Shown here in pieces: positions 11,079 through 59,039 of a DNA stretch of 64,000 nt. How positions within the stretch are numbered: the stretch's first letter is position 1; every line of letters begins with the position of its first letter. A model generated the notes under the pieces. The model saw nothing but the letters and a program-made list of their open reading frames with translations. It did no database searches and had not been told where the DNA came from. Source of the stretch: Rhyzopertha dominica. Its lineage: Eukaryota > Arthropoda > Insecta > Coleoptera > Bostrichidae. Made by a program: the position numbers and the translations under genes. Location: assembly GCA_025024175.1 (NCBI GenBank), contig QCXZ01000064.1:11904001-11968000 (forward strand). The letters are read 5' to 3'.

Positions 11079-11127
11079 AAAAGAATAAAGCGGATTACAC
11101 TTAAAGAATAATTTTCATAAAGAAGAA

Positions 11128-14808: not shown

Positions 14809-14851
14809 TTGTACTGACGATGGCTAGCATTTAGCCGAAAGCGCTATACAA
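14809..14851 (+). ncRNA. Hammerhead ribozyme motif at PLE 3' end
   Basis: Hand fold: stem I UUGUA (14809-14813) with UACAA (14847-14851), core CUGACGA (14814-14820), stem II GGCUA/UAGCC (14822-14826 with 14832-14836), GAAA (14837-14840), palindromic AGCGCU for a dimeric stem III, and cleavage expected after 14846 (triplet CUA). All invariant core bases are present. One extra U (14821) sits between core and stem II, as in the copies at 11033 and 52325, so it may be a family trait. PLE hammerheads of this dimeric kind are described in the literature. Confidence 0.72.
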
Positions 14852-14900
14852 TTGAAAAATAAAGTGGAAGTTCACATTAATAATATTTTCTTTTGAAGAA

Positions 14901-29389: not shown

Positions 29390-30870
29390 TATTACGGCGT
29401 TCTTTACATTCAACATAGCTTAGCTTAAAACCTAAATGAATCCGGTAGGTGCTGCCATCAATTTATCTTATCGAAACTCGGTTTGCGCGTTTTTGCCAAA
29501 AACGGTTTTGCCCACAAAAATACTATCACTATCACTTTGAACCTGCAAGATTCACCTAGTAAATTTCGCTAAACAGCTGCCTTTAAAATTGGATTTTGAT
29601 TTATCGAGTGTGTGAAACGCAATTAGATATTTGTATTGGATCTGAAAGGCGCTGTTATTATCATAATTGATTGCCTAATTGGGGATTTGAAAAGCGAATC
29701 GCTAGTCCTTGCAGAAGAGGGTCGAAGAGCAGACGTAAGTTCTTTTTATTCAATAGTACAGTGGTTTCACCATGCGTTTTCATTATTGCAGCCTTTCTTA
29801 CTTTCTTGCTTCTTACTTCTTCATCCTCCGGTTGTTACTTCGCTAAATCCACGTGCATAAGGGCTAATTGGTAGGAAAAATACTCCGGGAAGCTAATTGA
29901 CAGCTAGGATAGCAGCTGAAGGCCCATTTGGACCAGTAGGACTCCCAGAGGACCATCTTACCTTACGGTCAGACACTTTTATTTTTTTACGTTATCTATA
30001 ACTTGGACATTCTTGCCGTTCCGAAAGCACGTAGAAGCGGTTTTCCGTGGATCGTCGTTCGTCGTTTCCCTGAAATAAAGAAGAGTTAACGTTTCAACAT
30101 TTACAATTTACAATTTGATATTAGAATTTACAATTTGATCTCTACATTATGCAATTTGTTATTTTCTCAAAAATTTAATCGATACTCACCTGTATAGCGT
30201 CGGTTTATAGTAGTTTTTGTTTCCTTTCTGTTAGATTGTTCTAAAAATAACTTACCTTGATAAAGATAGGAATTTCGTTGACTGTTCAAACTAGAATAGC
30301 TTGTTATTTTTGTAAATAGCGGTTTGCGAGTCGCAGCGGCGTTTTGCCTATAGCTACGGGGATAATGTGAATTTATTGTGTATTCGGGAAGGTATTGGCC
30401 AATACTCCACCCCCGGGTGTCGATAATTAAGTAATACGTTCACTACTCACGAAATACAGTGATACGGTTTGACCGTTCTTCCCTCGCGCCACGACGCTCG
30501 CTTGCTAGACCGTTGCAGGGTCTTAGGGTAGTTATCACATTAATTTGAATTATAATCATTAACCTTGTTACATTAACTTTATATTTTTAATGCATATTAA
30601 ATTTTTGTAAATAAACACGGGCATATAAATTATTTCGCAATTTTATTTGGCTCTTTGTTTCGCTGTTGGCTTTTTTTTCAAATTGCGTGGCGCCCATTAT
30701 TTCTTTTTTTCATCTGTGAACCCAGCCCGTCTCCACTGAGTAAGCTGAGGCCAGCGAAACCCTCTTGAATATCGCCGTGGTTTATTAGATTTATTGTGAA
30801 GGTAAGATCTGTGGTTATAATATTTGTTGTTTGGTGGCTAATAAAGCCTTTGTGGTATCGTCACGTAATA
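29390..30870 (+). repeat. 5' LTR of the gypsy element
   Basis: The LTR is 1481 bp, long for an insect gypsy element. Termini are TATTACG and CGTAATA, a 7-bp inverted repeat, instead of the usual TG...CA ends. It carries possible polyadenylation signals (aataaa near 30073 and 30612). Two short open frames inside, repeated in the 3' LTR, lack motifs and are not proposed as genes. Its start and end are fixed by comparison with the 3' LTR and by the GACG duplication. Confidence 0.95.
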
Positions 30871-30876
30871 AAAAAA

Positions 30877-30894
30877 TGGCGCCCAACGTGGGGC
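30877..30894 (+). other. Primer-binding site, tRNA-Lys type
   Basis: The 18 bases TGGCGCCCAACGTGGGGC lie 6 nt after the 5' LTR. From memory they are the complement of the 3' end (including CCA) of insect tRNA-Lys. This primes minus-strand DNA synthesis. The sequence resembles the Lys primer sites of several retroviruses and gypsy-like elements, but I could not check it against a tRNA database. Confidence 0.85.
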
Positions 30895-31042
30895 AGCTTT
30901 GAACATTTTTTTCCATTTTTTGAGGTGTTTGTATAATATTTCGGGGCATTAGTTCTTATTGCTAGGAACGCGATCACGATTTCTTGTTCGGCCGAGAGGC
31001 ATAAAGATTATTTCGCGCTGAGTTTATTTAACATTTAGGAAT

Positions 31043-32434
31043 ATGGATAAATCATATTATAGATTGTCTGTTGATCGGTTATCTAAGGATGAATTGGAAT
31101 ATGAATTATCGATTAGGGGTGTTGTAGGTAGCGGGACGGTAGAGGAGATGCGCAAGGATTTGCGTCAAATTATGAAGTTAGAAAAAGAAGGTAAACCGTT
31201 GCAGTATCCTCCGTATTCGCGTGATGTACGAATAGAATTTGCTATCGTGCAAAAGAAACTAGACGAGGCTAAAATATTAATTCAAGATTTTGCCGGTGAT
31301 AAGCAGTCTTCAGAATTTATTAAAATACAAACCAAATTGCATCATCTGCTGAATCGCGTAAATAGAATAGAATCTGGGGACGCGAAAGTTCTTCAAGAGC
31401 GTGGAAATTCAATAGTACTGATTTTACGTGCATTGTCGTCATTAAATAAGAAAGCTGAACCAGAAAATGATAGCGACGAATCATCTGCGGAAGAACAAAT
31501 AGGCGTTAGCGTTATTGATGCGAATTCAGATAGAGGTAATGTTGTTAATATTGCTCATTCAACACCTTTACATAGAATTAATAATTTATCGCGCGTAGGG
31601 GTGGACCATGGTGTTAAGTCAGTTCCGGTTTTGAAATGGGGTATTCATTTTAGCGGGGAGAGTCGAGATCTTTCGGTAAATGCATTCCTGGAACGCGTCG
31701 AAGAGCTGCGGGTCGCTCGCAACGTATCGGAAGCCCAGCTGTTCCTATCAGCATTAGATTTGTTTACGGGAAAGGCTTTGAATTGGTATCGGTCAATTAA
31801 GAGATCGGTTGATAGTTGGTCCGCGTTAAAAGTTAAATTACGGGAACAATTTTTGCCGTATGATTATGAGGACAGGCTTTGGGAAGAGATCCGTCGTCGA
31901 ACACAAGGTCCAGATGAATCTCTAGGTATTTATGTCGCGGTAATGGATAATATGTTTTCGAGATTAACAATACCCCCTAATAGAGAAGAGCGTTTGCGAG
32001 TTGTTTTGAAAAATCTGGCACCATTCTACCAGGAGCGTTTAAGTCTTGTTGATGTAACGTCAGAAGAGAAGTTGTTGGAACTTGGTCGACAAATAGAAAA
32101 AAGTAAACGGTTTGTTGAAGCTTATAAACCACCGCATAGGTCTAAAGCAGATGTAGAACCTGATCTAGCGTACGTAGAAGTCGCGTCGGCAAGTACGTCT
32201 TTAAGTTATGAAGCACATGAGAGTCTTAGTAGGCGTGAACGCGTTGATGTTAATACGGCAAGTACTTCCAATACTAAATTGAATAACTGTTGGAATTGTG
32301 GTAGGAACGGGCATAGAGCTCAAGATTGTCGTGCACCATTTCGGAAACATTGTTATAAATGTGGAAATCCTGGATTTACTAAAAACGATTGTCCAAAATG
32401 TAGTTCGGGAAACGGAGAAACTCGTCCTTGTTGA
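31043..32434 (+). CDS. gag: Gag capsid/nucleocapsid protein
   Basis: 463 residues, the structural protein that packages element RNA in cytoplasmic particles. Residues about 12-45 resemble a SAP-like helix-loop-helix seen in some insect gypsy Gags. Residues 140-152 are acidic and serine-rich. Residues about 205-330 fit the retrotransposon Gag (capsid) domain, with the typical A-L-N-W-Y-R at 245-250 and an E-Q-F-L-P near 268-272. The C-terminus holds two zinc knuckles. The first (416-429) is a regular CX2CX4HX4C with C416, C419, H424 and C429. The second (437-450) has phenylalanine at the histidine place (F445), so it is CX2CX4FX4C. The start is the first ATG after the leader. The frame ends in TGA at 32432, overlapping pol. 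Confidence 0.93.
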   Translation: MDKSYYRLSVDRLSKDELEYELSIRGVVGSGTVEEMRKDLRQIMKLEKEGKPLQYPPYSRDVRIEFAIVQKKLDEAKILIQDFAGDKQSSEFIKIQTKLHHLLNRVNRIESGDAKVLQERGNSIVLILRALSSLNKKAEPENDSDESSAEEQIGVSVIDANSDRGNVVNIAHSTPLHRINNLSRVGVDHGVKSVPVLKWGIHFSGESRDLSVNAFLERVEELRVARNVSEAQLFLSALDLFTGKALNWYRSIKRSVDSWSALKVKLREQFLPYDYEDRLWEEIRRRTQGPDESLGIYVAVMDNMFSRLTIPPNREERLRVVLKNLAPFYQERLSLVDVTSEEKLLELGRQIEKSKRFVEAYKPPHRSKADVEPDLAYVEVASASTSLSYEAHESLSRRERVDVNTASTSNTKLNNCWNCGRNGHRAQDCRAPFRKHCYKCGNPGFTKNDCPKCSSGNGETRPC

Positions 32435-35400
32435 GTCGTGAGGATAAAGAGTTAGTTTTAGGAAAACCGGCTCATTCAGTGGATCATAAAAACAAAATTA
32501 TTTTAGACTACTTATTAAGTTCGGTGAACTCGGATGCAAGGGGATATTTGGAAGTTGACATTTTGGGGCACAAATTTTTGGGACTTCTCGATTCTGGAGC
32601 AAACAGCACAATTATTAGTGGCAATTGCTTTAGCATTTTAGAACGGTTAGGAATTCATTCGAATAAATCCTCTCAGCCTATTTGCCTTTTGGCTAACGGT
32701 TCTAAAGCCGAAATTTTGGGTACAGTTTCACTGCCGATTAAGTTGCAAGATAAAGTAGGAGTGATTGATGCGTACATTATGCCAACTTTACAACCATCAA
32801 TATTATTAGGGATAGATTTCTGGCGCATAATGGGTATTCTTCCAAATTTTAAAACTATGGAGTGGCATTTTGCTGATTCACCAAAGGTAGAACTGTTTTC
32901 TGTGTCTGATCAGGGAGAATTACATTCGGATCAACTTAAAAGTTTAAATGAAGTAGTCAGTAAGTACTTAGGTAGCGATAATGGAAAGCTAGGTTGCACA
33001 AAACTAGTTCAGCACGTGATTCGCACAACGTCAGCGCCAATCAAGCAGCGTAGTTATCGTATGAATCCAATAATGCAAAAGTATATTGATGCGGAACTTA
33101 AAAATATGTTGGAGGCGGGAATAATAGAACCGTCTAACTCTCCTTGGTCCTCTCCAGTACTTCTTGTTCCGAAGAAGGATGGCTCGTTTAGATTTTGTGT
33201 AGATTTCCGTAAATTAAATCAAGTAAGTCTGAGAGACTCTTACCCCTTACCGTATATGTCTGCTATTCTAGAGAGCTTGAGGGATGCACGTTTTTTATCG
33301 TCCATTGATATTAAATCTGCTTACTGGCAAATTGAGTTGGAAGAAAATAGTAAACAGTACACAGCTTTTAGTATTCCTGGGCGCGGACTGTTCCATTTTA
33401 AAAGAATGCCCTATGGGTTGCATAACGGACCAGCTACTTGGCAAAGATTTGTTGACAAGGTTTTAGGACCTGAGTTAGAGCCCTATTGTTTTGTATATTT
33501 AGATGACGTCATTATTGCCACGCCAGATTTCGATACGCATTTAAAAACTTTGCGTGAGGTTCTAGAGCGCCTAACAAATGCGGGTCTAACTCTTAATAAA
33601 GAAAAATGCCAACTTTGTCTTCCAGAACTTCGTTATTTAGGATATATTGTAAATAGGCAGGGACTGAGTGTTGATCCTGAAAAAGTAAATGCAATTTTGC
33701 GGATTAAAGCTCCCGCTACAGTTAAACAAGTGCGTAGCTTACTAGGTCTTATCGGTTGGTATCGGAGGTTTATACCTAATTTTGCGGAATTGGTAGCACC
33801 TTTGTCCAGTTTACTTAAGAAGAATCGTCGATTTGAATGGACTGAGGAGTGCTCCAAATCATTTGAGGCTGTTCGTAACTTGTTAGTTAGTGCACCAATC
33901 TTGTCATGTCCTAATTTTGACAAACCATTTATGGTTCAGACCGATGCATCAGCTTATGGCTTAGGGGCGGTTTTGTCTCAAAAATGTGAAGATGGAGATC
34001 GTGTTATATCGTATTTGTCGAGAGCTCTAACGCGTCAAGAGCAGAATTATTCAACAACCGAGCGTGAATGCTTAGCGGTAATATGGGCGGTTGAAAAACT
34101 AAGACCTTATTTGGAAGGGCAAAAATTTACCGTGGTAACCGATCATCACTCTTTAGTGTGGCTACAAAATCTCAAGGACCCGGTAGGGCGACTTGCGCGT
34201 TGGGCACTTCGGCTCCAAAGTTACGATTATGAAATCATTCACCGCAAAGGCAAAGAACATATTGTTCCTGACTTTCTGTCGCGTACTATTCCGGAAGTAA
34301 ATGAGGCGGTAGTGCAGCAAGAAAATAACAATTCTGTTGTTAACGATCCTTGGTATACAAAAATGATGTCTTTGGTCGAAAAGTATCCATTGCGTTATCC
34401 GGCTTTTAGAATTTGTAATGGTCGGTTGTTTAAACATATTCGAGATACCCATACGAATTTTGATGTTAAAGAAAATATATGGAAAGAAGTATTGCCTAAA
34501 GATAAACGTCTGCAACAAATGCGCCAAGCTCACGATAATCCAACATCGGGTCATTGCGGTGTTTTCAAAACTTTTCGTCGACTTCGTGAATTTTATTTTT
34601 GGCCGAAGATGAAAAGCGATGTAGTTAATTATGTGAAGCGTTGTCATGTATGTGCGCGTTACAAACCTCAACAAAATAAACCCGGTGGTGAAATGTCCAC
34701 TCGTCCTTTCGCGAAATCTCCTTGGCAGGTGGTGTGTATGGATATTGTGGGACCCTTACCTCGTTCACACGGTTATGCATATATTTTGGTTATATCGTGT
34801 TGTTTCTCAAAATTTCCCTTGATTTTTCCTATGCGCGAAGCAACCGGTAAAATTATAGCCCGATTGGTTGAAGAAAACTTATTTTTATTGTTCGGTGTTC
34901 CAGCGGCTATTATCACGGATAATGGATCTCAATTTCGGGGCGGAGAATTTCGAAAACTTTGCGAAGGATACAACGTAGAGCTTTGGTTTACTGCATTATA
35001 TCACCCGCAGGCAAATCCTGCTGAGCGTACCAATAGAATACTGAAAACTATGTTAGCGTCTTACGTTAAAGACAACCACAAATCTTGGAGTGTGTACTTG
35101 CATAAAGTGGCGTGCGCGATGCGTACTGCTGTGCACGAGGTCACTAACTGCACACCCTATTTTATAAATTTTGGACGCGAACACATAATTTCGGGTAAAC
35201 TTCATGAGCAGATTAGTGAAAATAAAACACATTGTGTAGATGATTTTATTGGGCATCGTTCGAAAGCATTTCAGACTCTGTATCAAGAAATACGCGAACG
35301 TATAAGAAAAGCGCATTTGCGTAGCAAACAGCGTTATGATCTTCGTCGGAGACCTACGAATTTTCAGGTAAATGATTTGGTTTATGTTAAGAATCACGTT

Positions 35401-35577
35401 CTATCGGACGCAAGTCGAAATATCAGCGCCAAACTGTCACCAAAATACCAAGGGCCATTCAAAATTAAGCGAAAGGTGTCCTATTTGACTTATGAATTAG
35501 ATGATAACGGAAAGGTAAAGGGTATATATCATGTTCAAGATTTAAAGCCTGCAACATGTGAAAATTTGGTAGAATGA
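32404..35577 (+). CDS. pol: Pol polyprotein: protease, RT, RNase H, integrase
   Basis: About 1050 residues made as a Gag-Pol fusion by -1 frameshift. There is no ATG at the start; the frame opens after a TAG at 32401, so 32404 is only the left limit. Numbering from the TTG at 32428: aspartic protease with D-S-G-A at 55-58; reverse transcriptase about 200-420 with D294 and the catalytic Y-L-D-D at 357-360; RNase H about 500-620 with D506, E547 and D572. Integrase follows, with zinc ligands H702, H709, C739 and C742, catalytic D772, D831 and E866 (35 residues between the last two), and a GPF motif near 1009 followed by the C-terminal tail. All catalytic residues are present and no stop interrupts. 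It ends with TGA at 35575-35577. The enzyme set makes and inserts the DNA copy. Confidence 0.95.
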   Translation, partial: FGKRRNSSLLSREDKELVLGKPAHSVDHKNKIILDYLLSSVNSDARGYLEVDILGHKFLGLLDSGANSTIISGNCFSILERLGIHSNKSSQPICLLANGSKAEILGTVSLPIKLQDKVGVIDAYIMPTLQPSILLGIDFWRIMGILPNFKTMEWHFADSPKVELFSVSDQGELHSDQLKSLNEVVSKYLGSDNGKLGCTKLVQHVIRTTSAPIKQRSYRMNPIMQKYIDAELKNMLEAGIIEPSNSPWSSPVLLVPKKDGSFRFCVDFRKLNQVSLRDSYPLPYMSAILESLRDARFLSSIDIKSAYWQIELEENSKQYTAFSIPGRGLFHFKRMPYGLHNGPATWQRFVDKVLGPELEPYCFVYLDDVIIATPDFDTHLKTLREVLERLTNAGLTLNKEKCQLCLPELRYLGYIVNRQGLSVDPEKVNAILRIKAPATVKQVRSLLGLIGWYRRFIPNFAELVAPLSSLLKKNRRFEWTEECSKSFEAVRNLLVSAPILSCPNFDKPFMVQTDASAYGLGAVLSQKCEDGDRVISYLSRALTRQEQNYSTTERECLAVIWAVEKLRPYLEGQKFTVVTDHHSLVWLQNLKDPVGRLARWALRLQSYDYEIIHRKGKEHIVPDFLSRTIPEVNEAVVQQENNNSVVNDPWYTKMMSLVEKYPLRYPAFRICNGRLFKHIRDTHTNFDVKENIWKEVLPKDKRLQQMRQAHDNPTSGHCGVFKTFRRLREFYFWPKMKSDVVNYVKRCHVCARYKPQQNKPGGEMSTRPFAKSPWQVVCMDIVGPLPRSHGYAYILVISCCFSKFPLIFPMREATGKIIARLVEENLFLLFGVPAAIITDNGSQFRGGEFRKLCEGYNVELWFTALYHPQANPAERTNRILKTMLASYVKDNHKSWSVYLHKVACAMRTAVHEVTNCTPYFINFGREHIISGKLHEQISENKTHCVDDFIGHRSKAFQTLYQEIRERIRKAHLRSKQRYDLRRRPTNFQVNDLVYVKNHVLSDASRNISAKLSPKYQGPFKIKRKVSYLTYELDDNGKVKGIYHVQDLKPATCENLVE
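32407..32413 (+). promoter_or_regulatory. GGGAAAC -1 frameshift slippery heptamer
   Basis: Gag and pol are open together only from 32404 to 32434, with pol in the -1 frame. In this 31-nt window the heptamer reads G GGA AAC in gag frame, a classic X-XXY-YYZ slip site. Slipping back one base enters pol. Downstream, ACUC (32420-32423) can pair with GAGU (32432-32435), and the UCCU in its loop can pair with AGGA (32441-32444), giving a small possible pseudoknot. The pseudoknot is weak and uncertain; the heptamer is clear. Confidence 0.8.
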
Positions 35578-35592
35578 AATTTTCATCGGAAT

Positions 35593-35603
35593 AGGGGGGG
35601 AGT
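35593..35603 (+). other. Polypurine tract
   Basis: A run of purines, aggggggg followed by ag, ends immediately before the 3' LTR (35604). It primes plus-strand DNA synthesis. The exact RNase H cut cannot be read from sequence; the tract is interrupted by one T just before the LTR. Confidence 0.75.
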
Positions 35604-37084
35604 TATTACGGCGTTCTTTACATTCAACATAGCTTAGCTTAAAACCTAAATGAATCCGGTAGGTGCTGCCATCAATTTATCTTATCGAAACTCGGTTTGC
35701 GCGTTTTTGCCAAAAACGGTTTTGCCCACAAAAATACTATCACTATCACTTTGAACCTGCAAGATTCACCTAGTAAATTTCGCTAAACAGCTGCCTTTAA
35801 AATTGGATTTTGATTTATCGAGTGTGTGAAACGCAATTAGATATTTGTATTGGATCTGAAAGGCGCTGTTATTATCATAATTGATTGCCTAATTGGGGAT
35901 TTGAAAAGCGAATCGCTAGTCCTTGCAGAAGAGGGTCGAAGAGCAGACGTAAGTTCTTTTTATTCAATAGTACAGTGGTTTCACCATGCGTTTTCATTAT
36001 TGCAGCCTTTCTTACTTTCTTGCTTCTTACTTCTTCATCCTCCGGTTGTTACTTCGCTAAATCCACGTGCATAAGGGCTAATTGGTAGGAAAAATACTCC
36101 GGGAAGCTAATTGACAGCTAGGATAGCAGCTGAAGGCCCATTTGGACCAGTAGGACTCCCAGAGGACCATCTTACCTTACGGTCAGACACTTTTATTTTT
36201 TTACGTTATCTATAACTTGGACATTCTTGCCGTTCCGAAAGCACGTAGAAGCGGTTTTCCGTGGATCGTCGTTCGTCGTTTCCCTGAAATAAAGAAGAGT
36301 TAACGTTTCAACATTTACAATTTACAATTTGATATTAGAATTTACAATTTGATCTCTACATTATGCAATTTGTTATTTTCTCAAAAATTTAATCGATACT
36401 CACCTGTATAGCGTCGGTTTATAGTAGTTTTTGTTTCCTTTCTGTTAGATTGTTCTAAAAATAACTTACCTTGATAAAGATAGGAATTTCGTTGACTGTT
36501 CAAACTAGAATAGCTTGTTATTTTTGTAAATAGCGGTTTGCGAGTCGCAGCGGCGTTTTGCCTATAGCTACGGGGATAATGTGAATTTATTGTGTATTCG
36601 GGAAGGTATTGGCCAATACTCCACCCCCGGGTGTCGATAATTAAGTAATACGTTCACTACTCACGAAATACAGTGATACGGTTTGACCGTTCTTCCCTCG
36701 CGCCACGACGCTCGCTTGCTAGACCGTTGCAGGGTCTTAGGGTAGTTATCACATTAATTTGAATTATAATCATTAACCTTGTTACATTAACTTTATATTT
36801 TTAATGCATATTAAATTTTTGTAAATAAACACGGGCATATAAATTATTTCGCAATTTTATTTGGCTCTTTGTTTCGCTGTTGGCTTTTTTTTCAAATTGC
36901 GTGGCGCCCATTATTTCTTTTTTTCATCTGTGAACCCAGCCCGTCTCCACTGAGTAAGCTGAGGCCAGCGAAACCCTCTTGAATATCGCCGTGGTTTATT
37001 AGATTTATTGTGAAGGTAAGATCTGTGGTTATAATATTTGTTGTTTGGTGGCTAATAAAGCCTTTGTGGTATCGTCACGTAATA
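35604..37084 (+). repeat. 3' LTR of the gypsy element
   Basis: 1481 bp, the same length and apparently the same sequence as the 5' LTR, offset by 6214 bp. It begins TATTACGGCG, ends CACGTAATA, and is followed by the target duplication GACG. Because LTRs are identical at insertion, lack of differences implies little time since then. Confidence 0.95.
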
Positions 37085-37088
37085 GACG

Positions 37089-37496
37089 GCAAATTTATCT
37101 ATCTAGGGACTAATAATGTGTAGTGCTCCTGAATAGAGAGGGTATCGTCATTGTCACCATATACATAGTCTCCAAAAAATTGGAGAGAAATTAGTTTAAT
37201 TTGTCATTTAGACCTAACTTCACAAGTGGCTGCTCTAAGATCCAAATCGCTTCTTTTTAACATCAGGACCCATGCTTTTCTTTACTCCTAATTTTTTGGC
37301 AAACAAAATAATCTAAAACCAGTCACAGATCGGTTATTACAGTTGAGAACGCAATCTTTAACATGGCATTTTAATAACCACACGCAATACGGTTTCCACT
37401 TACTAGGTAACATACAATGACAGTTTGACTGTACCCGGTATATACAGGAACACTAATAATGTGGACGATGCAATGCCATCTATAGGCAGACATTCC
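37089..37496. other. Non-coding, no gene recognised
   Basis: Flanking sequence between the gypsy target duplication and the tandem ribozyme repeat. Nothing recognised. Confidence 0.55.
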
Positions 37497-37532
37497 CCGA
37501 AGTGTCAAATATGCTGTGTTGTGCGCCTGCAT

Positions 37533-37578
37533 CAAAATGAACAGCTGTTTCGGCTTATTATGCCTTATCAGCATGGTT
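37533..37578 (-). ncRNA. Hammerhead motif, repeat copy 1 (decayed core)
   Basis: Minus strand: core CUGAUAA (37571-37565, invariant G8 changed to A), stem II GGCAU/AAGCC with one mismatch, GAAA (37551-37548), palindromic CAGCUG (37547-37542) suited to a dimeric stem III, then UU and predicted cleavage before 37539. Stem I pairs only 3 bp firmly (AUG/CAU). Probably inactive, but it shows the ancestral palindrome. Confidence 0.5.
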
Positions 37579-37876
37579 ATAGTCCCAATGCAATGCAGAC
37601 AACACAAGACGAGAACACGGCGCTTATCTGGCTTCCCTCATATACGCCAAGGTGGGCGATGTTCCTGGGAGCAAGAGATGATATGGGTGAAACATTGCCA
37701 TGTATAGACATTGGCACCCAACATGTATTTAGTGGAGATCGTTACCTGCTATCGATAGCTTGCCCGCTAGCAATCACTTAAACCAATAGAGATTAGAGAT
37801 CCCCAGCAACGTTTTTTGCCAAAGCGCAGTTCCATTTGAATGACGAATATGCCTGTGCCGTGTTGCCTGCATCAGA

Positions 37877-37926
37877 ACAACTGTGGACAACTGTTTCGGC
37901 TTATTAAGCCTCATCAGCACGGTTAT
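37877..37926 (-). ncRNA. Hammerhead ribozyme, repeat copy 2 (canonical core)
   Basis: Minus strand hand fold. Stem I AUAACCGUG (37926-37918) pairs with CACAGUUGU (37885-37877) over nine positions, with one C/A mismatch and one G-U. The core CUGAUGA (37917-37911) is canonical. Stem II GGCUU/AAGCC has five pairs and a 3-nt loop, with the conserved G-C at its base. GAAA spans 37897-37894. The very short stem III CAGUUG (37893-37888) can self-pair between two molecules with two G-U pairs. The cleavage triplet is GUC, cut between 37886 and 37885. All invariant bases are present. Activity may need the dimer, as described for other short-stem-III hammerheads. Confidence 0.7.
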
Positions 37927-38110
37927 AGTCCCGATGCAGACTACATGGCAGAGATTTGGCTTCCCTTATATGCTCCAGGGTGGGTGATGTTCATGGAAGC
38001 AAGAGATGAAGTGGCTGACACAATCCCACCAATAGGCACTGGCATCTAACATGTTGTTATCGATTACCGTTACTTAACGGCATCCCGCCTCGCAGCAGAC
38101 ATTTAAACCG

Positions 38111-41100
38111 ATATAGTCATGTTTGTCATATTTGCAAATACAACTGGTAGAAGTCATCCGGTAGAATAAGCCTTGATGTCCTGACTTGGAACAGGAAATC
38201 ATTGTAACGATTTCTTAGATATCTTCGGATATGGGACGATGACTTTTTAGAAAGAGTCGATGCCACAAACGCTAGACATCAGTTAGTGTATTGAGGGGAA
38301 AGATTCCCGTTAATGCTGGACTTAATCTAGGCATCAAAAAGTAGTTGAATATAAGGTCCGTGCCTTGTTTTTCGTATTAATTACAGAAAGAGAAAATTTG
38401 GGGGTCACTGTTGGCTTCGGATCCTTACGACCTCTAGCGGATATAACCAGCGACAAGTCCATTCATTCAAGTTCATTATATATAACTAGATAGTAGTTGT
38501 TTCATTAAATCTGTTTTATTAGCCTATTAGATGATTGATTTGGCGTAATGAATCTCATAAACACTAAAGTTAACATTAGCATTAGATTTGATACATTTGT
38601 TGATTAATGAATTTATAGTTAAAAAACTTTTTTCTTATAGATTCAAAATAAAAATCGTATTACATTTGGAAGCCTGACAGGTTGATCGTCTTTAAATCTT
38701 GTTTTCAAGCTTGTACTCTTCTCTACTATAATGAACAGATCGAAGTGTGTCGCCTATGAAGATGTCGTGAAAGCAATTAATATCGTACAAAATAATTTCG
38801 AAAATATTAGCATTTACCGTAACAGCTTGTACACCGTTCCTGCTTGAAGAGATACTGCAGGCCCAGTAGTTACAAAGTTCATCGGAGCCCTTAGAGCCTT
38901 TGCGCTTACAAGGCGTTTCTTAATGCCTGCCAGTTCCCTAGCGTTTAAAAATTCATCATCGCATCTCCAGCACATACTTCCTTTGGGAAATATCGCATAA
39001 AATATTTTAGCCTCGTAATCACCGATGATGGCGTACTCTGTTCGTATTAGATACAAACTCGCGGATACTGCTTATAATACGCTAGAGGCGATATAGGTTA
39101 GTGACTTTCCATGATGAAACATTCCATCCGCCGCGCTGCTTGGAATAAACAATTACATGGTAATAATTTTAGGCTATAATGACGTGTTCTGCAGCTCGAA
39201 CAGTGGATGCTGAAGCAGTATATAAGTAAGAATATTAATTTAACTTTTAACCGACCCTATATACATGTTTATAACTTTAGCATAAAAATGTTAGTATAGT
39301 AATATCCAAGAAAATGTAAAATTGGTAACCGAGTTTTTCATACATTTTCCATCATGTATGTTGTATTCTAGATAAACTTGACAAAAATGGTTGTTGTCTG
39401 CGTTTGTATAAACTAGCATTAGAAAAGGTATAGCGATAGTTGTATGATGGTTTTTTTTAAACAAAGATTTAGGAAGCTTCCGTAATACTAAATTTCATTA
39501 TAAAAGAAAGCAAATATATAACCAGAAATGGAAAATATAGCCAATATGTAGATCTTCCAATTGAAAAACTTGATTGGTTTAAAGTTTAAACTCGACACAA
39601 AATGTTTCAATATATATCGTCTGCAAACGATCCAGAATGCATCAAGTTCTACAAAAATTAGTCTTGTAAAGGATTCGGTGAGTTTAACTGTTTATTTCAT
39701 CTCAGGTCTAGGTCGTGTTCCTACTTTGCATTGCGTCAACTGCATTACTGTGTTTTTCTCTCACTTACCTATTACTATGTACTCTTCAACTGTTGTAGAC
39801 TTCTTCTTACTGTTGTAGATTTCTTCTTTGTTTTTCTGTGAGGACCAATTAAATAATAATTTGCATCCAATATTTTACTTGAAATAATGGGTGGTTCACT
39901 AATTAACGTCACTGTTAGGAAATGTTTAGAATAACAACAACAACAACAGCAGCAACGGCAACAGCGGTAACGGTAGTGGTAGTAGTAGTAGTCGTAGAGT
40001 AGGAGTAGCAGCAGTATTCGTATCAGTATCGATATTTAATCCAATAACCTTAGATTAATTAATTAATTAATAACTTTAAGATATCAGCTTTGTCAGTGAG
40101 AACACAACTAATTTCGTATCTAAAGGTAGTTTTGCTAAATTCGACAAGATTCTAATTTGTCGCAAGAGTATATAAATAATCAATAACTACCCTATATTTA
40201 GATCTAATATTAAACATTTTCAGCGTGCTCTATGCCCCTGTCCGTGGGTCGCCACCCCGAATATAATGCTCACAGTAGGCCATCATCTCATTAACAACAG
40301 CAACATTGATGTTTGTTACAACTTTATAGAGCTTACGTGTTTCTCTTCTGTGAGATCTTACATATTTTTTTCAGGGAATTATTTCTGCTATATCGTTGAT
40401 TTTAAGGCATCCGTTAACTTCAAATTCGGAAGTTGCTAAATCTTGAAGTTTTTGGGCTAGCTAGTTAAAAAGTTATCCTTAACATCAACATGGTCCGAGT
40501 ACAGAAAGGCCTCAGTTCCAGCATCAAAACTCAAACGAATCATCCCATAAAAAGGAATTTATCAGTCCCAGGTAATAATACAATTTAAATGATTGAATAG
40601 TTATGTAGTTGGAAGTGAAGTTACTTGTTTTTATAAACTATCCCCAAAAATAAAAAAATGTTACCTCCAAATTTAATAGTTTTATAAAACTTCCATAACT
40701 GGTTACTTCGCTTCAAAGTAAGTAGTTGAATAAATACAATTTCTCTTTATCAATTTGAAAAAGCTCTTAGAGCAAATTTCTAGCTTGACGGACAGCTCTT
40801 AACGTGGTGTTTGCTGATAAAGTATCACCGGAGTAAAACTTTCGGTTGATCTTTTCACCTCACCCGCTTACATTTACTCACGCGGCGAAACTGTAGAACA
40901 CGGAATGTAACTTTTAGTTGTGGCATAAACGCGCCGTTAATGCTTGTCCCGAGTTCCTCATCTGCCACGACCAGGCGCTCAACTTATGCGGGAACTCGCA
41001 AAGGAGGCCCCGCAAAACAGAAAACACTTCGTTAGGCGGGCCAACTTTTATAGCCAGACACGGCGGAGCGTAATTCAATTTTTGTTCAAGTTTTAATTAC

Positions 41101-43146
41101 ATTTTAAAACACGTAGAGAATATGCAGATAACTCGGCTAATTCGATAAATTCGCAGCCCGATCATGTATTCCAGCGTGGTCCAGAATTAGGTCAGATGCA
41201 TTAAGGGAAATTGATTTTAGCCTGTTGTATAATTTAGACTTCGCCGGCAAGCTCCGCTATGACCCGCGCTAACCAAGGTGACGGGCTCGGTGCCATCTGC
41301 CATTTAGTATGCGGTACATCCATTTATGTTTCCGACCATACGTGTTGGTGATGATTGACTTATACAGCGCGCGACAATATATGAGTTCCCGGAATATCAC
41401 TATAGATTCTGATTATATGCATAGTGGAAACAGCGATACAATATCTCACTCAGCCAATTAGAAATCACAGATGGCTTGTTGTGAGTAGCGTCAATGTCAG
41501 GATTCTGCTTTCCAACTAATTAGACCAAAAAAAAGATAATCTAGACAATGAGATAATCTAGGAAGACAGATGATAATATTTAAATTATTCTCACAAATAT
41601 TTATTTAAATATTATATTAAGAAGGCCGCCTTGATATTGTCGCGCCCTGAAGTTTAGGGTACAAACTGCTACGCTACCGAATATTGGAATCTAAAACAGA
41701 ACTTAAGCATTAGTGATGTGACTTGGGTCGCATTGACAAGTAATGTATTATGTAGGTAAAGAAATCTGTGTATCAAACGTACCATAATCTTAAAACATCT
41801 AGAAAGAAATATAAAAAACTTAAATAGTTGTTTTGCGAATCATATTTTGGGCCTAAAGGACGACTTTAGAGATGGTTGGATGAATATCTTAATAGGAGTG
41901 GTAAGGAGGTGTGTTTGTGTTTCAAACTGATAACTGGAGTATCCGGGAGAAAACAGTTCTTCTTAGCCACCGGTCAATTAAACTAATCCCGTGACGTGAG
42001 TATGGTAGAAGTTGTAGATGGCGATGTATGCCTTTTAGAATCTTGTAAACTTAGTGTTTGAACAGCAATTATGGTGTAGTGCCTGTTTATGTTTACCTCA
42101 CGCAGGTTTATATTCTATATGTGACACAGGGCTTTATATTCCAAGCGATATTATGTGAGTATAGATCATAGGGCTTTATATTATATTTGTCACAGAGCTT
42201 TATATTTTTAATGTGAGTGATTTATCGAGCAGGTGGTTCTTTATTGTTTAAATGCCAAGTGGTGAATTTACCTCACGCAGCTTTATATGTTTTATATTTT
42301 TATGTAATTTGAGTGGTAGGCTTACTGTGCGTGACTGACATCTTGAAGCTCTAATTTCTAATTTTCTGCAGCAAAGCTTTGTTACTATAACCTTATATAT
42401 AAATTTAGAAAGTTCATAATACTATGAGCAAGTTACTATATAAATGTGATCGTCTAGTTCTTTAGTAGGAACCAAAAATTACGTTATGTTTGAATTAGTT
42501 CGATATCAAGCTCTATTTTTATATCATTCAATAGGCAATAAAAAATGAACATTTTTTTGTAATACAACCCTATGTCAAATCCTAACACATTCGGAGTTAT
42601 TTGCCAAAAACTCGTGTCAAGAAAAAGAAAAGACTTTTAAGATTGAAAAGTTTGACAGTAAATTGTGGACATCTTTTAATAAGACGGATTATTAATAATT
42701 AATTAACAAAGATGTTAGACTTTATACAATACATTCCCAATACTAATTATATTAAACAAGCATTATTTGATTTGTTATTAAATTTTAAAACAAGAGGTGC
42801 AAAACCGATTTTTTTTCATTCTTTTGCGGTTATTTCTAAACACATTTGAACAAAAATATGGGAATATGTAAAAAAACCAAAAAAGTAACCCACTGCACAC
42901 TAAAAAATATATCTTCCAACACCCTGTATAAACAAATATATTTTTTGAAATGCGTTATGTGATATAATACAAGCTCACAAAATATTAAAATTCAAACTTA
43001 AGTAATAACTGAGCTACAGAAAACGGGAGCTGAGATGAAGGACCCTGTATATACATAATATATTTTGCACCGAAAAACTGCGGAGTGCTTACAATTACTG
43101 GAGAAAAACCGCAGGAAAAGCTCCAGTCTTTGCATAGTAATTATAT
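38111..43146. other. Non-coding, no gene recognised
   Basis: Five kilobases without a supportable gene. It holds a compound trinucleotide repeat at 39931-40012 (listed separately), a loose inverted repeat at about 40610-40725, and a GC-richer, CG-containing patch at about 40850-41300. At about 42110-42310 a word like agggctttatatt recurs four times. At 42930 and 43045 the word accctgtata, common at ends of insect DNA elements, appears in direct orientation. None forms a complete element that I can bound. Confidence 0.5.
39931..40012. repeat. Compound trinucleotide microsatellite
   Basis: Runs of AAC, AGC/GCA, GGTAGT, then AGT and GTC/GTA triplets in succession, with interruptions. It has an impure, drifting repeat unit and no coding context. 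Confidence 0.85.
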
Positions 43147-43555
43147 TGTTACGAATAAGAATTTCGAAAACTGCTGATTTTTAACTTGCTTTCATTCAAA
43201 ACACTAAGTTTAAACACAACTAGTTCAAAACACCACTGTTTTAACACTTCTAATTCACTAAACTACTATACTGCACACACCAACACTAAAAACACTCGCT
43301 TCCTAAGCTTTTAGCTCGTTGATAACCGCTATTCGATTTCAGAACTTCATATTCAAACTTCCAACTTCCATCATGCGTCAGCCCGCGCTTAATATAGATA
43401 GCTTCAGCCTACGTCATCTTTCTAGATGTTTCTAGGAGTACATTCCATCGACATTCCCGCCCTCTAGCTGTTGCTAGGATAACTACTTGCAGTGTCCTAT
43501 TATACCGCATCTACATGCCTGCAACTCCGGTCTACAGATGGCCCAGCACGTAACA
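43147..43555. mobile_element. Solo LTR, 409 bp, TSD ATAT
   Basis: Begins TGTTACG and ends CGTAACA, and is flanked by ATAT on both sides (43143-43146 and 43556-43559). Inverted TG...CA ends and a 4-bp duplication fit a gypsy-type LTR. There is no internal region, so it is a solo LTR left by recombination. Its 7-bp end resembles that of the intact gypsy element (TATTACG/CGTAATA) apart from the second base. Strand cannot be decided. Confidence 0.75.
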
Positions 43556-43559
43556 ATAT

Positions 43560-45304
43560 GTTATATTTAACTGTTAAGTACATTTGTATGATAGCTAATC
43601 AGGCTAGACCTGAATTAAGGAGGCTCCTCAAAAGGTCAGGTATGCAGCAGAGACCTGAATGTGTTTCCTGAGAAAAAACAGAATTGTTTAAGTGGTGGTC
43701 ACTGGCAGAACCACATTGACCAATAATGTTTGTTCTTGCTGTAAAGAAATTGTAGAATTGAGTCGTAGATAAATTATTAAGCATCTAAAATAAATGATAA
43801 GACAGATATTTGCGTAAACTATACATCACTAGGCGAAAAAGACAAAATATCAAACCAACACAAGAACACAAACAAAACACGAAGAGTAAAATACACACAC
43901 ATAATACAAGGCGGGGTATACGTACAATAAAGACAGCCTTGCATGACTTATTCGTATTGCTTCTTGCAGGCAATAACCTAGAGCTAAGATCCCATATCCC
44001 GGAGTAAATGATGTCTCGGCATTTTGTACGTAGAGACGCTATGCTGCCATCGCACTGCCTTGTGTTCGAAGAAGATCATCATCACTGTCTCTCAGAGGAA
44101 GCCTTTTTGAGCTTCGTGAGCACCCACGTTGTAGGACATTCTTGGTAGCCTAACAGGCTTTGATCTCTGCTAAAGGCATGGAAAACAAGAAGTCACGCCA
44201 AATAAAGCCTGCAGTGGCCCAATACATAATAAGTTCGATACCGTTAGGTGAAACAGGCGGTATGTGAGTAGGGTGATTTGCATAAGTCACATTAATGACA
44301 GTTAATTAATTCAGACAACAAATACACATAAAACTAGCATAAATATTTGGGTGGCGAAACTGGCGGTATTAAAAAGATATTATTAAAATGCTATATACGA
44401 AGATTTTTATGAGGTCTCTGTTACCTAGTGTTTCTATCGGTCTTCCGTATGATGGGAGCGAACGGCACGCTTCATTTTAGTGGGGTGATCAGCTACATTT
44501 GCGGAGCGCTGCCTTCGTGGTGACGTTGACGGAACGGTGACCTCGATGCTAACTGGTAAGATGCGGATAGGTGCTTTCCAGAGGTCAGCTAGTCCACGGA
44601 AGACTTTGGCGTCAGCAATGGGGCACCCAGGTTTGAACTAGGATAGGTAGTTTCTCCAGGCGTTACCTAGTCCACGGAGGACTTGGCGTCACCAATGGGA
44701 CGGAGCACCTGGCGTCATCAACGGGGGTTACCAAAGGGGTACGAGCTCGGTTTCGGATTGGACTGCCACAGGGTCACCTGATCCATAGAGGACGTAGCGT
44801 CAGCAAGTGACAGTTACAAAACGTTACTTAACTCGGAAAATTCGAGCTTCGCTTCGTTTAAATCTACCTCAGGGTCACCTAGTCTACAAGACACAGCGTC
44901 AGGAGGTAATAGACTCAAACGTTCCTTAGCTCACAAAGCCGGGAAAGCAATAACTACAATACGACAGAGAAGACAGAGAAGTGATCGAAACCTGAAACAC
45001 ATCTCCAGTGCCGTCGTTGTCCTAGCGCCGCTGTTTTTTATACGGTTCTCGCGGTCCAGATTAGAGGGGGCACGCGCAATCGTTGGGAGCCTCAGGCAAA
45101 AGCGTGATTGTACGCAAAATAATAATAAAAAGTAGCACCTAGGGGTGGTATGCTTCAGCTTAATGTTTTATTTGTTAAGCTAGTAGCTCTTCTACTGGAC
45201 GTTTCCAGTTCAGTAGGCCCAATAGGGGCCATATCAAGTAAAGCTTGATGTTTTACTTATTACTTCTACTGGATGTCTTCTGTAAACCCAATGGGGGCGG
45301 TATT
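43560..45304. other. Non-coding; minisatellite-like block at 44580-44915
   Basis: No gene recognised. Composition becomes GC-richer from about 44440 to 45110. Within it a unit of about 42 bp occurs four times: near 44582, 44660, 44772 and 44872. Each reads roughly ggtcacctagtccacagagg followed by acttggcgtcagcaatggg. Spacing is irregular (78-112 bp). This resembles the internally repetitive region of an LTR or leader, but no LTR pair is seen. Confidence 0.5.
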
Positions 45305-45308: not shown

Positions 45309-47851
45309 GAGTTGCCCAATTCCAAAGTGAGCTTTGTCCGCTTAACCAAATTCTGAGTAAATGAACAAAACGTGTTCTGAATTGATTTTCTTCTTAAAAC
45401 ACATTCTGCTTTTGCCAGATTCTTTAGTTTTATGTCCATTTTCATTCTTTTGTAACCATAATAAGCAATTTTAAATGCAAATCATGAAAAAATTTGTTTT
45501 AATTTGGACATTACTAGTTTTGGAAGTCACTACAGGACAAAGCTTGTTTTGTAATCAAACTAAAGGACAATGATGCTTTTGAAACTAATTTTATTGAAAG
45601 AAAACGAACTATTTTACATGTTCACATTAATATAAAATATGTTGCATTTTAAACACGAATATAAGAAGTTTCGTCCATGGGAAAGTCCTCTTCTTCAGCC
45701 AGATTTTCTTTATTATTATCAATCCGTTCATTATTTTCAATTATTTCCTTATAATAAGTCAGCTCTTCCATTTTTTGCCAGTCAGAACCAAAGTGTTTTT
45801 TCAACGGACTATCTACATCACAAAGTTTTTTTCGGATTTATTTTAACACCAAGGTTTACTGTAGCAGGTTCTATTTGACCCACAGATTTTCCCTTTTTAC
45901 AAACACTTTTGGGTGTTGTAAGGTCACTCCTATAAAAGGCTTCTCCCTGAATCAGAATTCCTCCTTTAGGTGCCCGTTTGATAATAAAACGTTTGGCCTC
46001 CGTAAATTTGAAATGTTTGTTTAAAAACAGATGATATGGCAGATTTCCAATCCAAAACTGGATAATCGCGGCCTGGTCGAAAAACAGTACCGTGTTGTTC
46101 AAAAATTGAAATGTACTCTTCTGGATTTATGATCGTACTTTTTTCTTAACAACTCGTTCGATACATCCAAAGATTCTGTCTGGTGGAATATAGGAGTGGC
46201 CTGCAACTGGAAAAACTAGTAATACTTCCTTCATTGTTGGGGGAGCATCGTCATAAAGCCACTTTGATACCATCCCTATCATGGTGGTGTTTTTGTTTTG
46301 TCCACCGCAACCATCTGCGATCAAACGAACACTGTGACAGTCACTAAAACCCATATTTTGCAAACGGTGGTAAACTGCTGATGCTATTTGGTTGGATCCT
46401 TTACTACTTTCTACCTCAATCCATGCATAAATAAAAGTGTTTTTTATATGCTGCCTGGTCTATGAAGTACCTTCACATATTGTGAAGTTGTATGTGTATA
46501 GCTGTCTGCTGTAGTAAGCAGCCTGGTCCGGTACCTTGGGCATGACCATATTTTTTTGACAATCATAGGATATAGTCGCTTCATTCTCGGCTTCATTTCT
46601 TGAAATGCATTAGCTCGCATCTTGTGAACCCTTTTCTCAGTAATAAATTTTTGTTTTTCCTTTTCACTTTTCGCAAATTTCAATCGCTGCGTTAATTCGA
46701 TACACCGCGAACATGCATCGGTGGAAGGTGATCCAAAGCTAACGTTGTATTCTTCCACAAATATTTTGCGAAAGTACTCATACTTCACTTTTTCGATAAA
46801 CAGTTTCACAGCATTTTTTTTATTTTGATAATGACGTGACCTGGAGTCTCCGCCGCGATTCTCCTTTGGTGCTGTATCATTTATAAAATGAGCTTTGCAA
46901 ACACTTTGGATCCTACTTTAGTCACAGCCAGTATAGACATAAAAGTTTTTTGGCACACGGGTACAACTTTTAACCCTGTTTCCTGTCTAAGTCATGGCAT
47001 AAAATATCTAATGAAAATCGTATTCGAAGTAACGTTTTTTCTAGAACGTTTGCGTTTAGGTGATTCCGTCGTTGTGTACTTTAAAATAAACGAATCTTGC
47101 TCGATTTTGTTTTTTGAAGAATAAAATCCTTCGTGAAAACGTCTCACATCTTGCATGTTTAAGTTACCACATTGGAAAACGTTCTTATTTTTATGTATGC
47201 AGGTGGGTAGGCGAGGCAATGTTTTTGCAGAGTATCTGTAATATTAGTTTTAAGTACCTACGCAGATATTTAACTTTCAATCGTACCTGATACGTTTCCT
47301 CTTATTCTTTTCCCACTGTGTGGGTTCAGAAATTCTCCTCCTTCCTTTTCTGGTTTCCGATGGCACAATGTTTTTCAAACTTTGGTCTCCTGACTTTTCC
47401 ATTCTTATACAGCTACCTTACAAATTAACTTTTACTAAGCACGTTGTTAAAATCAACTAATAATTGCACTATAATAATACTGCTCACTGCTGTCACGCTA
47501 CACTGCCATTAAAATAATGTGCACAACACACAAAATTTACCTACAACTAACAAATGTACAAAGCATAATTTGGAAACAATATTGATATCGTCTACAAAAG
47601 CGACTATGCTCACTTTGCTGAAATTGCAGACAGACATGATCGGACATGATTCTGTATGGAACTAAAAATATACCGACTAAGCTGGATTTGGAACCAACTC
47701 TTAGTTTCGAAGTCAATTTTAAACGGACAAAACCATTTTTGAAACAAAATCTTTGTTGCTAGAGCTAACTTTTGGGTTTTAGACACAGATGGCGCAAAAT
47801 GTCCGTTTTTTTAATTTAATGGACATTGCTCGTTTTGGAATTGCACAACTC
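45309..47851 (-). mobile_element. DNA transposon with 31-bp TIRs and TSD AAAT
   Basis: Left TIR 45309-45339 and right TIR 47821-47851 are inverted copies matching at 25 of 31 positions. The ends are GAGTTG and CAACTC. Both are flanked by AAAT (45305-45308 and 47852-47855), a 4-bp target duplication. Subterminal sequence on both sides is rich in ggacaa and ttttggaa/ttttgaaa words that could be transposase sites. The interior holds a decayed minus-strand gene filling the element. A 4-bp duplication and GAG...CTC ends recall the Sola superfamily as I remember it, but I cannot verify that here. Confidence 0.72.
45649..47402 (-). pseudogene. Decayed transposase-like gene (D-G-C-G-G-Q-N-K-N family)
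   Basis: Frames on the minus strand, joined in order, recall a multicopy insect protein family. The N-terminus is basic (R-K-G-R-R-R, then K-N-K-R-K-R). Next comes a cysteine-containing segment with Q-D-V-R-R-F-H, then V-C-Q-K-T-F, A-P-K-E-N-R-G-G-D, and a C-S-R-C pair in S-T-D-A-C-S-R-C. After these come S-Y-D-C-Q-K-N, K-V-P-D-Q-A-A-Y-Y-S-R-Q-L-Y, A-D-G-C-G-G-Q-N-K-N and P-P-D-R-I-F-G-C-I-E-R. The acidic residues in S-Y-D-C, A-D-G-C and the last segment are candidate DDE/D residues (inference). A 51-nt GT-AG intron is likely at 47236-47286, because read-through hits a stop. Damage: a TGA near 46994, frameshifts near 46875, 46600, 46130 and 45835 (several at A-runs), and a TAG after E-G-T-S near 46463. 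Not functional. Confidence 0.7.
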
Positions 47852-53414: not shown

Positions 53415-54497
53415 CCTGTTGGACAAAAGTTTACGCCCATCGTCGATTTTCAGTGTTCTGGATTTTTGAAAACTTAATGTTAAACTGTTATTGACATGTG
53501 ATTTGGCATACGGAAAAACCTATGCTCCTATGTTTTTATGAAAAAACAATTGATATTTCACATTTTTAGACATTTTTATTGCATGTTTTACTTGGACAAA
53601 AGTTTACGCCCACTTCGCATTTTTGTTGACTTTAAGGCGGCTATGTTAATGTAATGTAATGTGTCAGTTGTTATACGTATCTGTCAACATGGGAAAAGGA
53701 AAGAGTCTTTCTGATCCCACGCTTTTTTTCTAGGCGTAACTTTGGCGGTGGTACTTCTATGGTGTGGGGTGCATTCTCGGCACTTGGCACGCTAAGAATT
53801 GCTTTTACCTCACCTCGTATGGATAGCGCAGAGTACATTGATGTTTTACAGACAAATCTGTTGCCGTTCCTTTGTCGATTTCGCTGTTTAAAGTTGGTTT
53901 ATCAGCAAGATAACGCGCCTATTCATCGAAGTAATGTGACTATGCAGTGGTTTCGACAACGACGTGTGGAATTACTCGAATGCCCTGCGCGTTCTCCGGA
54001 CTGTAATCCCATGGCAAACGTTTGGGCTATACTCGTCCGTCGAGTTTATGCAATAACATGCAGTATGGGACCGTAGACGAACTGAAAGCCGCGATCAGAC
54101 AAGTCTGGGATGAACTCGAGCCAAACATCTTGAACAACCTCATTTTGTCTACGAAAAAACGCATGATTGCGCTATTGAAATGTAACGGTGGCGTTATAAA
54201 TTATTAATGTTTCAAATTATTATTAATTATTATAATTAATGTTTAAAATTAAATTAGTTTTGGCTTTTAAATAAAAAAATATCGTTAAAAAATGCAAAGT
54301 GGGCGTAAACTTTTGTCTAGGTCATAAATGCAAAAATGTCTATAAAAACGTGAAATATCAATCGTTTTTCATAAAAACATAGGACACAGGTTTTTCCGTA
54401 TGCCAAATCATTTGTCAATAACAGTTTAAGGTTAAGCGTTTTCAAATGTCCAGAACACCGAAAATCAACGGTGGGCGTAAACTTTTGTCCAACAGTG
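53415..54497 (+). mobile_element. Tc1-like transposon, internally deleted, IR/DR type
   Basis: Inverted ends of about 210 bp (53415-53625 and 54287-54497) flanked by TA on both sides (53413-53414, 54498-54499). Each arm contains two copies of ttggacaaaagtttacgccca, an outer and an inner (53419 and 53592; 54472 and 54300 inverted). This is the IR/DR arrangement of some Tc1-like elements. The left end lacks one base relative to the right. The element is 1083 bp, short for Tc1, because part of the transposase gene is deleted. Confidence 0.88.
53689..54207 (+). pseudogene. Tc1-like transposase, deleted and mutated
   Basis: The ATG at 53689 starts M-G-K-G-K-S-L-S-D, a normal Tc1-type N-terminus, but the next codons run into the DDE domain after a large internal deletion removing the DNA-binding helix-turn-helix region and the first catalytic aspartate region. 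From 53759 the frame has M-V-W-G-A-F-S-A, then Q-Q-D-N-A-P-I-H with the second catalytic aspartate, then P-A-R-S-P-D-C-N-P. The following P-M-A-N-V-W has alanine at the place of the third catalytic acid (normally glutamate). A frameshift near 54045 moves the C-terminus into another frame (54022-54207). Transposition in cis is impossible; mobilisation in trans could still use the ends. Confidence 0.85.
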
Positions 54498-59035: not shown

Positions 59036-59039
59036 GGAG

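Follow-up and report, generated by a model that had tools for sequence, protein, structure and literature searches.

A decayed hammerhead retrozyme copy in Rhyzopertha dominica and the insertion anatomy of its family

The window copy and its surroundings

The window analyzed here is a stretch of 64,000 nucleotides from the beetle Rhyzopertha dominica (contig QCXZ01000064.1, positions 11,904,001 to 11,968,000 of the forward strand). The features to which the text refers are the following:

14228 to 14902, plus strand: Penelope-like remnant between inverted arms (14228-14317 and 14813-14902), not part of the retrozyme
37503 to 38116, minus strand: retrozyme-type insertion of about 1.8 head-to-tail units, from self-alignment and mapping, read from 38116 down to 37503
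37502 to 37642, minus strand: hammerhead module of copy 1 (alignment A1, row L117:1506-1646)
37540 to 37571, minus strand: hammerhead of copy 1, with core CTGATAA and a GUU triplet, predicted inactive
37540 to 37885, minus strand: interval between the cleavage points, 346 nt, 46% GC
37846 to 37970, minus strand: hammerhead module of copy 2, comprising TATAAG box, outer stem I, hammerhead, outer stem I (alignment A1, row L117:1850-1974)
37886 to 37917, minus strand: hammerhead of copy 2 from CTGATGA to C17, a descriptor match, sub-threshold in Rfam (26.2 bits)
37965 to 37970, minus strand: box of copy 2, TATAAG, which reads TATGAG in copy 1 (alignment A1)

The original prediction had described two diverged head-to-tail copies on the minus strand, which was borne out by a self-alignment in which 37841-38116 and 37503-37791 had 69% identity with gaps, while a 55-nt core piece had 89% identity between the two copies at a spacing of 346 nt. 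The predicted distance between the cleavage points was also recovered, with C17 of copy 2 at 37886 and U17 of copy 1 at 37540, exactly 346 nt apart. In minus-strand orientation, copy 2 has the sequence CTGATGA / GGCTT-AAT-AAGCC / GAAACAGTTGTC. The hammerhead parts that had been claimed for it are present: stem II is 5 bp long and closed by a loop of 3 nt, GAA follows, stem III has 3 bp and a loop of 2 nt, and GTC comes next. The cut site is predicted to lie between 37886 and 37885. Stem I had been given as nine positions, and these can be read by eye in copy 2 with one C-A mismatch and one G-U pair, but the fold shows a much longer stem I. A full hammerhead descriptor (core, stem II of at least 4 bp, stem III of at least 2 bp, NUH, and stem I of at least 3 bp) matched copy 2 alone in the window, and only 1 of 300 dinucleotide-shuffled strands.

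Copy 1 reads CTGATAA ... GAAACAGCTGTT on the minus strand, and its core is broken, with G8 changed to A and a GUU triplet instead of GUC. In a dimer ribozyme, each core is paired with the cleavage site of the other copy, so that with only the core of copy 2 intact, one of the two cuts would be served by an intact core in either the monomer or the dimer mode. Since G8 is the proposed general acid of the hammerhead (PMC6155905, accessible text), copy 1, which has lost it, should be inactive, and judging from this known role of G8 the window locus should not excise a 346-nt unit or circle. The idea of a canonical dimer giving small circular RNAs is not supported at this locus, where copy 1 is core-broken and the Rfam score is sub-threshold.

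The window insertion ends at its 3′ side 37 nt beyond the cleavage point of copy 1, near the 3′ end of the family, and its 5′ start (TATCGGTTTAAAT) is common to the independent locus L120. A comparison of the flanks found no target duplication at its ends, and unlike the family it has no inverted 5′ copy with target duplications. No third copy was found beside the array, as six local alignments to 37085-37502, 38117-38520, and 38521-39500 all scored lower than the highest-scoring of 200 shuffles; a pair of these flank alignments, those of copy 2 with 37085-37502 and 38117-38520, exceeded the 95% shuffle mark and were not counted as a third copy. The window copy is an old, decayed insertion, a fossil of little interest alone, and the interesting part is the insertion anatomy of its family.

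In the vicinity, a young Ty3-type LTR retrotransposon occupies 29390-37084, with identical LTRs (29390-30870 and 35604-37084), ends of the form TATTACG...CGTAATA, flanks sharing the 4 bp GACG, and ORFs for gag (31022-32434) and pol (32404-35577). A link between it and the retrozyme copy was considered and rejected: none was seen, the two are 418 bp apart, and the LTR element has a flank match of its own. A Pfam scan covering 19 of the 33 window ORFs of at least 95 aa, and one shorter ORF, gave further traces of mobile elements or of uncharacterized kind, DDE_3 at 53660-54073 (1.7e-9), as well as DUF7869 at 46130-46459 (4.1e-5) and RT_RNaseH at 59019-59468 (0.0094), both below the cut-off. The two longest ORFs across the unit yielded 0 Pfam families. 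Among the 40 ORFs of at least 50 aa in 37085-44000, no ORF with reverse transcriptase (RT) and GIY-YIG was recognized by eye, nor by Pfam in the two that were scanned. Neither the Pfam results across the unit nor the 423 core sites described below gave any sign that the unit is part of a protein-coding element.

The family and its insertion anatomy

When up to 3 mismatches were allowed, a 35-nt core pattern was found at 423 sites in the window's own genome (479 Mb), 4 of them exact, whereas the reversed pattern, used as a control, was found at 0 sites in the same genome. Searching with the 614-bp query returned at least 53 matches in this genome, 40 of 875 candidates having been scored. Alignment A1 comprises 38 modules from 29 loci, after six of 44 extracted rows had been dropped, five because they matched the self-complementary hairpin on the opposite strand and one (L140) because it resembled another hammerhead family. 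The core was parsed in 34 of the 38 rows and reads CTGAGGA in 21, CTGATGA in 6, and CTGAAGA in 3, with 4 singletons. Subfamily A, which includes the window copy, mostly has CTGATGA after CCGTG; the majority belongs to subfamily B, in which CTGAGGA occurs with CTGTG/CACAG and the core carries U7G. Position 7 is a tolerant position of the hammerhead.

Unit lengths are 346 nt in the window, 323 nt for the B unit, and 312 in L141, and common family traits are a palindromic stem III, a 22-bp outer stem I, and the lack of coding capacity. The B unit served as the reference for coordinates, with u1 as the first base after the cleavage site. A TATATAAGG box near u237, upstream of the hairpin, is kept family-wide in most A1 rows. 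We class the family as a short, non-coding retroelement with a type I hammerhead, of the animal retrozyme kind. At L119, a chemosensory-receptor-like ORF was also noted (7tm_6, E 0.0016, below the cut-off), in keeping with an insect genome.

For the anatomy of the insertions, 90 locus records (40 + 50) were mapped, leaving out the repeat places L121, L147, L148, and L160-L162. These records are a non-random set, drawn from similarity to the window unit, from the core pattern, and from places picked off the pattern list. After sequence-based removal of repeat places they contained 80 element clusters (the second cluster of L187/L195 was probably counted twice), 55 of which were B-like at 85% identity or more over at least 90 nt. 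In 42 of these 55 well-conserved clusters, an outer end lies at u38-50, and in 31 the outer end is an inverted u205-225; both fixed ends occur together, corresponding to an inverted 5′ arm, in 23. A typical two-ended copy thus begins with the flank duplication and an inverted arm, which runs backwards from about u217 and stops at a variable point. The direct arm follows, with a variable start and an end at about u47 in the next unit, and the second flank duplication closes the copy.

Exact flank matches of at least 8 nt (8-12 nt) were present in 11 of the 23 two-ended copies, compared with 1.4% of 506 mispaired 5′/3′ flanks, although two of the 11 are doubtful, that of L150 not being adjacent to the end and that of L182 being of low complexity. 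L122 has an 11-nt match at its ends that lies outside the flank-search window and was not counted. These matches indicate that the inverted and the direct arm come from one event, at least in many copies. In subfamily B, derived changes were common to copies in 45 of 147 cases within a locus and in 624 of 8229 between loci, which as a total agrees with a single event, although some arm pairs of one locus have zero derived changes in common.

Since the arms that end at u38-50 cross the cleavage site, the copied RNA was uncut or resealed, and not a cut monomer ending at the ribozyme. The inverted arms of L136, L145, L150, and L168 cross the cleavage site themselves. Taken together, the two arms span approximately one unit in L146 (u45-370), L139 (u43-370), L134 (u37-367), and L191 (u20-370), and approximately two units in L207 (u26-682) and L208 (u16-688). 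Such near-whole-unit spans would be the trace of a circle or of a ribozyme-made multimer, and the data fit both.

The tandem form that had been predicted is present in the window and in some copies (tandems are found, for example, in L141, L202, L207, and L208), but 31 of the 55 well-conserved copies have an inverted outer arm, and a direct-order two-unit form was seen in only some of the copies read. Longer arrays did not appear in the loci read, which make up less than half of the 423 sites and contained single, short tandem, or inverted copies alone. Where the prediction had left the choice between retrozyme and satellite, the retrozyme-type reading is upheld by the 423 core sites, and the satellite alternative is not supported by the loci read, which lack a long array. 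Spread of a hammerhead satellite DNA by unequal exchange could account for the two tandem units in the window and for the other tandems, yet it is very improbable for copies that are dispersed and in many cases flanked by target duplications.

According to the accessible text of PMC7229834, animal non-LTR retrozymes have type I hammerheads and tandem copies, as found here, with units of 150-450 bp (here 323 and 346), a GC content below 50% (here 46%), and no ORF (none seen here). The same text reports a weak palindromic stem III for axolotl retrozymes and the presence of Penelope-like genes in the same genome for animal retrozymes, both of which apply to this family, and target duplications of more than 4 bp when present, which the family has and the window copy has not. 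Further defining traits of animal non-LTR retrozymes are self-cleavage, expression as linear and circular RNA of unit length, and the lack of LTR, primer binding site, and polypurine tract. There are three differences. The larger subfamily has a U7G core, unlike the animal non-LTR retrozymes, and a TATA-like box is present in most rows here, whereas metazoan retrozymes seem promoter-less according to the part of a review consulted (PMC7761336). The inverted outer arm seen in 31 of 55 copies is undescribed in the accessible text of PMC7229834, and no mention of a retrozyme insertion with an inverted arm was found among the titles and abstract openings of the mostly open-access literature searched.

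Penelope-like elements as candidate helpers

The route and the enzyme by which animal retrozymes integrate constitute a question that the insertion anatomy of this family addresses. Cervera and de la Pena regarded Penelope elements as a strong helper candidate for animal retrozymes, on the basis of a common ribozyme type, the tandem habit, and co-existence (PMC7229834, accessible text). The ends, target duplications, and head-to-head GIY-YIG order described here form a separate, structural argument beside that 2020 proposal, and about u47, about u217, and the cleavage seam provide exact sites for testing.

In the portion of PMC3846280 consulted, Penelope-like elements with GIY-YIG are reported to have an inverted 5′ copy and 8-10 bp target duplications, along with a TATA box, palindromes at the inverted junction, and partial tandems, all of which recur in the present family. 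The anatomy of the retrozyme insertions, with its inverted 5′ copy and target duplications, is that of Penelope-like elements, and by this analogy Penelope enzymes may paste in these retrozymes. The same source describes a case of mobilisation in trans, and for the Penelope inversions its authors favored self-priming on an antisense template. Unlike Penelope-like elements, the retrozyme unit is without RT or endonuclease, and its two outer ends are drawn from separate places within it (about u217 and about u47), whereas those of Penelope consist of the pLTR and an optional tail (PMC3846280, portion consulted).

With 150 of 2081 candidates scored, the number of GIY-YIG matches in the genome is at least 144. 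Among the 21 neighboring pairs within 6 kb, 20 are in minus,plus order, one is minus,minus, and none is plus,minus, a head-to-head order that looks like that of the retrozyme arms. One GIY-YIG ORF (L213) is open over 864 aa, of which 600 aa were read. Relatives of this 600-aa piece number 831, and the 120 listed include many with PF00078 (RVT_1) and some with PF01541 (GIY-YIG), besides others with neighboring Pfam families (precomputed annotation); those named come from insects (Coccinella, Microplitis, Eurosta, Temnothorax, and others). When the piece itself was scanned with Pfam, 0 families were returned, despite its GIY-YIG score in the genome search.

In the window, the remnant at 14228-14902 is a candidate example of the helper class, with a GIY-YIG piece at 14300-14701 that scores 20.2 bits, just below the Pfam cut-off of 22.6, and that had no relatives at E ≤ 0.001 among 40 candidates scored. 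Its 90-nt arm contains a hammerhead-like CTGACGATGGCTAGCATTTAGCCGAAAGCGC, as read by eye. An RT-like piece at 10860-11129 (E 0.028) is a weak trace of a second Penelope-like relic, and the DNA beside it is 76% like the arm 14813-14902.

We consider it likely that 37503-38116 is a decayed, non-autonomous insertion of the retrozyme kind, made via a Penelope-like enzyme from sealed or multimeric RNA. To account for the directly observed sequence, copy number, fixed ends, inverted arms, target duplications, and head-to-head GIY-YIG pairs, we infer cleavage, a circle, a Penelope enzyme, and two-site priming. In the source copies, a long stem I hairpin would have been capped by a type I hammerhead, and the RNA transcribed from tandem copies would have been cut to units by the hammerheads and sealed by a host ligase. 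Sealed or uncut multimeric RNA would then be reverse-transcribed at a chromosomal DNA break by a Penelope-like enzyme. Synthesis would start at a fixed site immediately outside the hairpin, about 45 nt beyond the sealed cleavage site, and priming by the opposite DNA end at a second fixed site (about u217) would give the inverted 5′ arm. The point of junction between the two cDNAs would vary. Tandem copies such as that of the window could result if the enzyme went round more than once or copied a multimer. Several results count against this model: no Penelope element carrying the retrozyme's own ends was found, a listed GIY-YIG match is close to only 1 of 95 hammerhead places checked (see below), the 600-aa piece of L213 gave 0 Pfam families, some arm pairs have no derived change in common, the window copy has no target duplication at its ends, and the Rfam and covariation scores are low.

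The narrower version, a two-primer Penelope reaction on sealed circular RNA that is primed at about u47 and about u217 and copied as two arcs, one of them inverted, is put forward tentatively, as it may well be wrong in this form. If it were true, the ribozyme hairpin would also be the landing site of the enzyme, and the self-complementary hairpins would be the joining sites of the two cDNAs.

Alternatively, a LINE could mobilise the retrozyme, with ordinary twin priming as the source of the inverted arms. Target-primed reverse transcription of the LINE type would likewise be consistent with 5′ inversions, AT-rich 3′ tails, and duplications of 8-12 nt, but random internal priming would not give an inverted arm with a fixed outer end (31 of 55 at u205-225), and the head-to-head order is also seen in the genome's GIY-YIG matches, the set used for comparison. 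We therefore regard this explanation as unlikely.

Somewhat less probable still is that the unit represents the pseudo-LTR of an autonomous Penelope-like element, with the ORF-less copies as solo or tandem pLTR remnants. The anatomy does resemble that of Penelope pLTR insertions, and Penelope-like pieces adjoin the unit in L180, L155, and weakly in L131. However, the unit in L180 sits beside a relic that has a different hammerhead-like motif of its own, the GIY-YIG piece in L155, which lies against an atypical end, is most plausibly target DNA, and a listed GIY-YIG match lay within 5 kb at only 1 of 95 hammerhead places checked (of the 423 sites). The L180 relic is Penelope-like RT by motif, with Pfam RVT_1 at E 0.093 only, and its hammerhead-like motif reads CTGAGGAAGAACCGACATGCGTGTCGAAACGC.

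The minimal hammerheads of Penelope pLTRs reportedly described by Cervera and de la Pena in 2014 and Lunse in 2017 are said to have a very short stem III. The very short stem III is common to the present family and suggests dimer action, whereas stem I is here extended into the 22-bp outer helix, unlike in those minimal hammerheads.

Fold, Rfam scores and related hammerheads

The expected Rfam hammerhead match on the minus strand did not reach the threshold, and no Rfam family attained its gathering score in the window. The best match was Hammerhead_3 at 26.2 bits against a cut-off of 48.5 (E 0.0056 for 1.3 kb and 0.28 for the whole window). Better genome copies were also sub-threshold, as Hammerhead_3 scored 24-32 bits in 8 of 13 other loci against the same cut-off, and no hammerhead was found by Rfam at E ≤ 1 in the remaining 5.

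The fold of copy 2 (37855-37955) has a z of -5.2, with 0 of 200 shuffles as stable, and that of copy 1 (37511-37615) a z of -2.7, with 4 of 200 shuffles as stable. For the 346-nt unit as a circle, z is -3.3 when the ribozyme strand is folded and -1.2 for the opposite strand; as a line it is -3.2, compared with a lowest value of -3.16 among up to 40 random window stretches. The value for the whole unit is thus high without standing alone in the window. The module consensus of subfamily B forms a long hairpin with, when folded as a hammerhead, a 22-bp outer helix at -45.0 kcal/mol, while its free fold (-58.6 kcal/mol) pairs part of the core otherwise.

In the 38 rows, 90% of 1296 cells pair in the named structure, versus 22-46% with the partner slid. 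Cells changed on both sides numbered 15 against 7.5 in shuffles (0 of 500 reached 15), but 17 at slide +2, and pairs changed on both sides numbered 7, which 40 of 500 shuffles reached and which all slid versions exceeded (8-10). The covariation score was equalled by 85 of 500 shuffles. Compensating changes are therefore weak evidence. Once one gap had been shifted manually to bring stem I into register, 19 cells were obtained versus 8.8 (0 of 1000 shuffles). RNAalifold found no consensus structure on alignment A1, and shifting one gap gave no more than a trivial structure, perhaps because many copies are decayed. Chance hammerhead likeness in a repeat of another role, which the sub-threshold Rfam scores and the blank RNAalifold result might invite, can hardly be credited given the single match among 300 shuffled strands and the hundreds of sites that retain the core, GAAA, GUC, and the palindromic stem III.

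Another ribozyme model, the RAGATH-1-hammerhead (RF03152), resembles the retrozyme hammerhead in having GACTATAA before the core and differs in its distal pairing. Membership was rejected, as the window scored 23.4 bits, far below the gathering score of 56.3. The pattern GACTATAAN{3,8}CTGATGAG matched 116 viral stretches, 7 of which had GAAAC at a fitting distance. Three IMG/VR contigs (L003, L037, and L049) carry RAGATH-1-like hammerheads with GACTATAA upstream that look real by eye. Near retrozyme copies, another hammerhead-like family was observed on the minus strand at L126:3091 and L140:446, with CTGATGAG...CGAAATAG and TAGACCTA upstream.
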